Shown here: positions 56,669 through 58,392 of the stretch, in pieces
Numbering within the stretch: the first letter of the stretch is position 1
Layout of the letters: every line of letters starts with the position of its first letter
Assembly (NCBI GenBank): GCA_002897855.1
Contig: BDTO01000003.1
Coordinates: forward strand, 1-61,377
Direction of reading: 5' to 3'
Length of the DNA: 61,377 nt
Source of the DNA: a bacterium BMS3Bbin05
Lineage (GTDB): Bacteria; Nitrospirota; Thermodesulfovibrionia; Thermodesulfovibrionales; BMS3Bbin05
Notes under the pieces: model-generated
The model's database searches: none
The model's input: the letters and a program-made list of their open reading frames with translations, nothing else
Told to the model about the DNA's origin: nothing
Position numbers and translations under genes: made by a program

Positions 56669-56787
56669 ATCGAGTCCAATATGGTCACACTGTTTCTTGT
56701 TGATAGTCAGTGGCCGGTATGATAATATTGATTAGGGTTGCATTGCTATACCCGGTATTAGATAATAACATCTAAAAGGAGAAGTTG

Positions 56788-58392
56788 ATGGAAGAGATAT
56801 TATCATCCGATGTCAGAAAGAATCTGAAAAAAGAGTTCTCCGCCCTTTCGGGTAATGTAAGACTGGTTGCTTTTACCACAAAAGGTCTGAATGACAGGTT
56901 TAATGACATTGCCGTCAAGATCTGTGAGGAATTTTCAGGGCTGAATGATAAGATCAGCTTTGAACACAGGGACCTTGGGAGTGATGAAGCGAAAAAGTCG
57001 GGCATCGATTCTTCCCCGGTTATCCTGTTTAACCCGGACAAATACAACATACGTTTTATGGGAGCGCCCATAGGTGAGGAGGGCCGCTCTTTTGTAGCGA
57101 CGATTATGATGGTCTCTACGGGCAATGGTGTCCTCTCAAAGCCCTCGATTGAAAGATTGAAGGAACTGAAGGAGCCCCGTGATGTGATAATATTTGTGAC
57201 ACCTACCTGACCTCTCTGTCCCCAGCAGGTTGCTTACGGGGTATCGGCGGTAATCGGAGCACCGGATAAGATATCGGTCAGGATTGTTGAATCAGCGGAG
57301 AATAAAAAACTTGCAAGCAGGTATTCTGTTGCCACAGTTCCCCAGACGGTTGTCAACGGAAACATTATTGCCACGGGCGTACAGCCCGAAGAGGCATTTA
57401 TTGACGGTCTCGTCACGGGTGTACCTGTAGAATTAAAAATAGCGCCTTCAACCGGAGAGATAATAAAGAAAGATGCAGTTATAGTGGGAGCCGGGCCGGC
57501 GGGTTTGACGGCTGCCATCTATACGGCCCGTTCGGGCATGAGCACGGTAGTCCTTGATAAGGCAAATGTCGGCGGACAGGTTGCAATAACGCCCATCGTC
57601 GAGAATTATCCTGGTTACACGCGTATTCCAGGCAAGACCCTGACCGATATGATGGCACAGCAGGCGTCACAGTATTCAGACATACATGAGGGGGAAGCGG
57701 TATTGGAAGTGGAAAGGAGTGAGGATGGCATCTTTCATATCAGGTCTACATCAAACCGCTATGAGGCAAAGGTTATTATCCTTGCTACCGGTGCCGGGCA
57801 TACTATGCTCGGGGTTCCCGGAGAGAAGAGGTTGTTCGGCAGGGGAGTCAGTTATTGTGCGACCTGTGACGGTTATTTTTTCAAAGACGGGAAAAAAGTG
57901 ATTATAGTCGGAGGAGGTAATACTGCAGCTACGGAGGCATTATATCTTGAGAGTATAGGCGTGGATATAACTATTGTGCACAGGCGTGACAAAATGAGGG
58001 CGGAGGAAAGGCTGCAGCAGAATCTGAGAGAAAGGAAAATTCCTGTTCTCTGGGATACTGCAGTAGAGGAGGTGCTGGGTGATACCGTGGTGAGTGCGGT
58101 AAGACTCAGGAACCTGAAACAGGATGAAACCTACGAGATGCCTGTAGATGGTGTATTTGTCGCCATAGGGTACGACCCTGTTAACGAACTTGCGAAGAAG
58201 ACAGGTGTTGACCTTACGGACGAAGGTTATATAAAGGTTGACGAGAGGCTCAGAACCTCGATCAGGGGTATATATGCTGCAGGAGATATAACAGGGGGAG
58301 TCAAGCAGATAGTTACCGCAGTGGGCCAGGGCTCGATTGCTGCTATTACGGCCTTTGAAGACATGATGAATCCGTACTGGAAAGAGAAATAG
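56788..58392 (+). CDS. Selenoprotein: thioredoxin-like double domain with U-x-x-C fused to thioredoxin reductase
   Basis: Reading through the TGA at 57208-57210 gives one 534-residue protein. Residues 1-110 are a first thioredoxin-like fold without cysteines. Residues 130-215 are a second fold whose active site reads VTPT-U141-P-L-C144, where relatives have CPYC-type motifs, with a later cis-proline TVPQT. From about 229 (AVIVGAGPAG) a complete thioredoxin-reductase flavoprotein follows, with redox C357-A-T-C360 and NADPH site GGGNTAATEA. The layout resembles AhpF with the domains in the same order. A SECIS-like hairpin follows the TGA. ATG 56788 follows AAAGGAGA. It likely passes NADPH electrons to the selenol site for peroxide or disulphide reduction. 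Confidence 0.9.
57208..57241 (+). promoter_or_regulatory. Bacterial SECIS-like hairpin at the UGA codon
   Basis: After TGA (57208-57210), the arm CCCC-AGCA (57220-57227) pairs with TGCT-(TAC)-GGGG (57231-57241) around a 3-nt apical loop GGT (57228-57230). The loop is 17 nt after the UGA, within the distance usual for bacterial SelB-bound SECIS elements, and it carries the expected G-G-U. There is a small 3-nt bulge on the 3' side. Confidence 0.75.

Follow-up and report, generated by a model that had tools for sequence, protein, structure and literature searches.

A predicted selenocysteine codon in an AhpF-like disulfide reductase of a Nitrospirota bacterium

Introduction

Does an in-frame TGA in a long reading frame of the bacterium BMS3Bbin05 (Nitrospirota) end a gene, or is it read as selenocysteine (Sec)? 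The locus lies on contig BDTO01000003.1, in a stretch of 61,377 nucleotides (positions 1 to 61,377) that was analyzed as a whole and is called the window below. The original prediction, made from the sequence of the window, held that the TGA occupies the first position of a redox CxxC (T-P-T-U-P-L-C-P) in a fusion of a double-thioredoxin domain with a thioredoxin reductase (TrxR), an AhpF-like machine in one chain.

Sec in homologues of the N-terminal domain of AhpF (TIGR02187, UxxC) was reported in 2006 (PMC1794560), and such a homologue (e.g., ABB15282.1) is listed for Carboxydothermus (PMC1794560, PMC13188914). Further Sec homologues of this domain are listed in reviews of 2022 and 2026 and are known in Asgard archaea. 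The window protein belongs to the same domain family, has Sec predicted at the same UxxC position and likewise has Cys homologues. The known Sec proteins are described as homologues of the N-terminal domain; in the window protein, which is from Nitrospirota, one chain holds both that domain and an FAD/NAD(P)H reductase of its own. No full-length Sec reductase fusion, Nitrospirota example or repeated origin was found in the open-access literature, an absence that is no proof of novelty. The part that we regard as new is the full-length fusion, together with its apparent repeated origin in Nitrospirota.

The reading frame and its TGA

The frame extends over 534 codons on the forward strand (56788-58392), and its single interruption is codon 141, a TGA (57208-57210) flanked as FVTPT-U-PLC-PQQ. 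Within the N-terminal, double-thioredoxin half, this TGA takes the place of the first Cys of the CxxC, just as had been predicted, and the 394 further codons that had been announced are there when the TGA itself is counted. A probable Shine-Dalgarno sequence, AAGGAGA (56776-56782, forward strand), is seen on inspection ahead of ATG 56788. Standard ORF calling returns two pieces: one ORF of 140/141 aa that stops at 57210, and a reductase ORF of 302 aa that begins at GTG 57484. This is the split into a 140-residue protein and a truncated reductase that the original prediction had foreseen.

At five other sites in the window, a TGA stands alone between long open stretches (over 80 codons on its 5' side, over 100 on its 3' side), and no redox motif coincides with any of these. 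A bare TGA of this kind is therefore not rare by itself, and what goes beyond chance is its position: in all seven homologous genes with a TGA, described below, it falls on codon 141.

An AhpF-like architecture

The N-terminal half of the protein (56788-57447, forward strand) contains two thioredoxin folds and resembles both protein disulfide oxidoreductases (PDO) and the AhpF N-terminal domain, as judged from TIGR02187, the archaeal PDOs 1j08 and 1a8l, and the predicted structure. The first fold has no CxxC and the second has the UxxC. The PDO model TIGR02187 matches residues 7-207 with 157 bits, under its curated cut-off of 185. Residues 229-534 (57472-58392, forward strand) make up an FAD/NAD(P)H domain of the thioredoxin-reductase type (Pyr_redox_2, 5.7e-56; TIGR01292, 341 bits). 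Over the full length, the AhpF model TIGR03140 matches residues 4-527 with 294.6 bits, under its curated cut-off of 502.9, and AhpF 1hyu is matched end to end (2.5e-52). Thus the protein scores under the curated cut-offs for both AhpF and TrxR; it is AhpF-like and is not filed as AhpF by the curated cut-off. It nevertheless has the arrangement that marks AhpF, namely two thioredoxin folds with a single CxxC followed by a TrxR-like domain with its own CxxC. In the predicted structure (mean pLDDT 84.7), a pTM of 0.58 leaves the relative placement of the domains uncertain. The best three PDB fold matches of the model are E. coli and Salmonella AhpF entries, and among the 50 PDB matches listed only AhpF entries match over the full length. 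Sequence and fold hence agree on the predicted fusion.

The redox cysteines of AhpF are residues 129, 132, 345 and 348 (PMC12288474), and with a constant offset of +12 these correspond to residues 141, 144, 357 and 360 of the window protein. The TGA stands at the equivalent of Cys129. Cys144 (57217-57219, forward strand), the second Cys of the UxxC, is the equivalent of Cys132 and is invariant in the homologue alignment, as are both cysteines of the CATC pair Cys357/Cys360 (57856-57867, forward strand), the equivalents of Cys345/Cys348. Since the first thioredoxin fold lacks a CxxC, as in AhpF, the predicted Sec would lie in the sole redox centre of the N-terminal half.

Like AhpF of Salmonella and E. 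coli (1HYU, 4O5Q), the window protein has two N-terminal thioredoxin folds with one CxxC and then a TrxR-like domain. It differs in the predicted Sec that replaces Cys129, in CPxC and CATC motifs that are nearer to those of PDO and TrxR, and in a gene that is not beside ahpC; identity in the fold alignment is 26%. By sequence, no solved structures are closer to the N-terminal half than archaeal and Aquifex PDOs (1A8L, 1J08, 2YWM), which share its CPxCP motif, but PDO is a separate protein with a separate TrxR, whereas here the reductase is fused. In the aligned archaeal PDOs, unlike the window protein, the first fold also carries a CxxC. In a Thermotogota relative (L069 347-1915), a stop separates the neighbouring ORFs for PDO and TrxR, which share one frame. 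A similar unfused look is seen in several class-level Nitrospirota matches that cover residues 161-524 and contain an internal TAA (e.g., G378:C3:69039-70112).

Cysteine and TGA at residue 141

Searches covered 396 Nitrospirota whole genomes and 177 of the same order. Full-length homologues with a TGA were found in seven genomes: that of the window itself (G000), G152, G005, G024, G360, G370 and G426. Each of the seven genes has a single in-frame TGA and no other stop. The non-redundant full-length rows (n=60, before the addition of G426) comprise 54 with Cys and six with TGA, and nothing else occurs at residue 141; the Cys codon in the Nitrospirota homologues is TGT or TGC. An alignment at this residue was what the original prediction had proposed, with a correction of the TGA to TGT or TGC at read level as the outcome that would overturn it. 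The recurrence of the TGA in seven genomes rules out a read error. These include G152, a single-contig chromosome that comes from the same genus, matches CP070669.1 and encodes a protein with 68% identity. A tblastn search of plasmids gave only distant AhpF-like matches (~31% identity).

The simplest objection to Sec is that the TGA is a true stop, either through a nonsense mutation in a pseudogene or as the boundary between two proteins, a double-thioredoxin fragment and a reductase restarting at GTG 57484. This is how standard ORF calling divides the frame, TGA is one base away from TGT and TGC, and PDO and TrxR are separate ORFs in the Thermotogota relative. A stop would, however, have to recur at the same codon in seven genomes from at least four lineages, with no second stop in any of them, and the truncated product would be left without the second catalytic Cys. 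The stretch between the UGA and the restart is also conserved as protein. Over codons 142-231, from the UGA to the reductase part, the window gene and that of G152 differ with a dN of 0.27 and saturated dS, and the differences by codon position over these 90 codons are 26/15/55. This pattern between two same-genus genes with predicted Sec indicates purifying selection, as expected for translated sequence. We consider a true stop very improbable.

Sec machinery of the host genome

The presence of Sec machinery was a second point on which the original prediction had staked itself, and the host genome (2.46 Mb, 93% complete) encodes all of it: SelB (365 bits), SelA (597 bits), SelD (362 bits) and tRNA-Sec (67.5 bits, anticodon UCA). 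In-frame TGA codons are also present at canonical Sec sites of FdhA (CARF-U-H) and SelD (CG-U-AAK). The genes selB and selD and that for tRNA-Sec lie together on contig G000:C61 (L141), within ~12.5 kb, and the Sec-codon fdhA is on G000:C9. Another frame of molybdopterin oxidoreductase/Fdh-like type has a single in-frame TGA (G000:C67:51220-51978) and is a possible further selenoprotein. Among the TGA genomes, SelA and SelB were found in all six that were examined (the first six). Each of the two was found in 75 of the 80 tested genomes with a homologue of the window gene (~94%), and so the machinery is permissive and offers no contrast between the Sec and Cys forms.

A frame that is open either way could also be translated with another amino acid at the UGA, such as Trp or Cys, through a change of the genetic code or near-cognate readthrough. 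TGA ends 23 of the 49 long frames in the window, and a change of code is ruled out with TGA as a normal stop there. Against readthrough as some other residue stand the complete Sec pathway and the homologues, which always have Cys at this site. Of the explanations considered for the UGA, this one is the least probable, its likelihood being very small indeed.

The downstream hairpin

A predicted SECIS hairpin lies directly downstream of Cys144 (57220-57241, forward strand). It is made of CCCC (57220-57223), AGCA (57224-57227), an apical loop GGU (57228-57230), UGCU (57231-57234), a bulge UAC and GGGG (57238-57241). The apical stem of 4 bp is followed by 4 bp below the 3-nt bulge, with a predicted energy of -8.6 kcal/mol. 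The bSECIS model asks for a loop of 3-9 nt, a stem of 4-16 bp, a G in the first two loop positions, a spacing of 16-37 nt and an MFE of at most -7.5 (PMC13188914). The hairpin satisfies these constraints (loop 3 nt, apical stem 4 bp plus 4, GGU, 17 nt, -8.6 kcal/mol), although the model is permissive and discriminates weakly. The original prediction had placed the hairpin itself 17 nt after the TGA; that distance holds for the GGU loop, and the hairpin starts at 9 nt. The hairpin is common to the window gene and G152/CP070669.1.

All seven TGA genes satisfy the bSECIS constraints. Over the full 16-37 nt range, the first six TGA genes pass in 6/6 cases vs 21/54 Cys genes (Fisher p 0.006), and at a spacing of 16-21 nt, a range narrowed after seeing the data, 6/6 pass vs 13/54 (p 0.0005); these p-values count TGA genes as independent, and two pairs are related. 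When the same peptide is recoded synonymously, between about one third and two thirds of the draws still satisfy the published model, which is permissive. An equally good hairpin arises in 221/600 draws over 16-37 nt and in 16/2000 at 16-21 nt. The combined p of the recoding test, subject to the same assumption of independence, is 0.04 over the full range and 2e-7 for the post hoc range of 16-21 nt (window gene 2/600). A loose scan for SECIS elements (loops of as many as 14 nt, stems of any length) does not separate Sec from Cys genes. Compared with dinucleotide shuffles, the 61-nt region has no extra stability (z +0.86), so the hairpin is a geometric match and not an unusually stable fold, and an Rfam search around the TGA site gave no relevant match. 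Residue 151 is Ala in 53 of the 54 Cys rows, but in the genes of the window and of G152 it is Gly, and its GGG codon forms the 3' arm of the hairpin; this suggests that the protein sequence at this residue yielded to the RNA.

The SECIS evidence taken alone is thus moderate. Given the unremarkable stability of the 61-nt region and the lack of a relevant Rfam match, we take the hairpin as supporting evidence, and the exchange of Cys and TGA at the catalytic position as the main evidence for Sec. We infer with high confidence that the gene product is a flavoprotein disulfide reductase of AhpF type, with UGA codon 141 decoded as Sec by SelB and tRNA-Sec via the downstream hairpin.

Apparent repeated exchange of Cys and Sec

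A maximum-likelihood tree, built without two long-branch rows, needs four Cys/Sec changes inside the close family, every one of them forced by well-supported branches, and monophyly of the Sec rows is rejected in an AU test (p-AU 3e-15). One of the TGA genes, G426, adjoins the Cys-containing G136, G300 and G427 of its own genus code. The distant G370 is probably a further (fifth) switch. These sequences suggest that related bacteria made the switch from Cys to Sec several times, each time independently. Several gains from Cys would explain the pattern most simply, with repeated loss or transfer as less simple alternatives.

Proposed electron path and candidate clients

In the reaction that we propose, NAD(P)H would reduce the FAD, which in turn would reduce C357/C360, the CATC pair in the reductase domain. 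From there the electrons would reach the double-thioredoxin domain at its selenenylsulfide U141-C144, and U141, as a selenol, would attack the disulfide of a client, probably an AhpC-type peroxiredoxin encoded elsewhere in the genome or general protein disulfides. The gene neighbours encode NUDIX, DUF4177-like, Yip1 and CofH/MqnC-type radical SAM proteins, none of which names a client; NUDIX, Yip1-like and radical SAM genes also flank the homologue in CP070669.1. An AhpC-type peroxiredoxin is encoded on contig C84 (L144; TIGR03137 215 bits, under the cut-off of 272), next to rubrerythrin-like, flavodiiron-like and desulfoferrodoxin-like genes. This cluster probably serves in oxygen defence, and its peroxiredoxin is a candidate client.

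With Sec accepted, the enzyme could instead be a general protein-disulfide reductase of thioredoxin/PDO type and not a peroxiredoxin reductase, a reading that concerns the client only and overlaps with the preferred one. We give it close to an even chance. It would suit the PDO-like CPxC and TrxR-type CATC motifs, the score under the AhpF cut-off and the lack of an AhpC gene beside this one. A search of the 93%-complete host genome with the Pfam thioredoxin model also points this way, since it returned TlpA-like proteins and one weak match and no canonical stand-alone thioredoxin above the Pfam cut-off. A peroxiredoxin reductase is favoured by the first thioredoxin fold without CxxC, as in AhpF, by AhpF as the best match in both full-length architecture and fold, and by the AhpC-type peroxiredoxin on another contig.

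Implications

With the predicted Sec fusion, a known family of Sec domains would gain an architecture in which the selenoenzyme is self-contained and driven by NAD(P)H. Standard annotation will split such genes and mis-annotate both halves. Judging from the thioredoxins encoded in the genome, the cell may rely on the fusion as its main thiol reductase in the cytosol, or as its general thioredoxin system. More tentatively, it could be the main route from NAD(P)H to disulfides in a lineage without ordinary thioredoxin, with a switch that recurs since only a few changes separate the conserved CPQQ(V) codons from a SECIS hairpin. The apparent conversions from Cys to Sec, one of them inside a genus (G426), would form a natural series of replicates for studying what Sec costs, what it brings and how a SECIS element arises.
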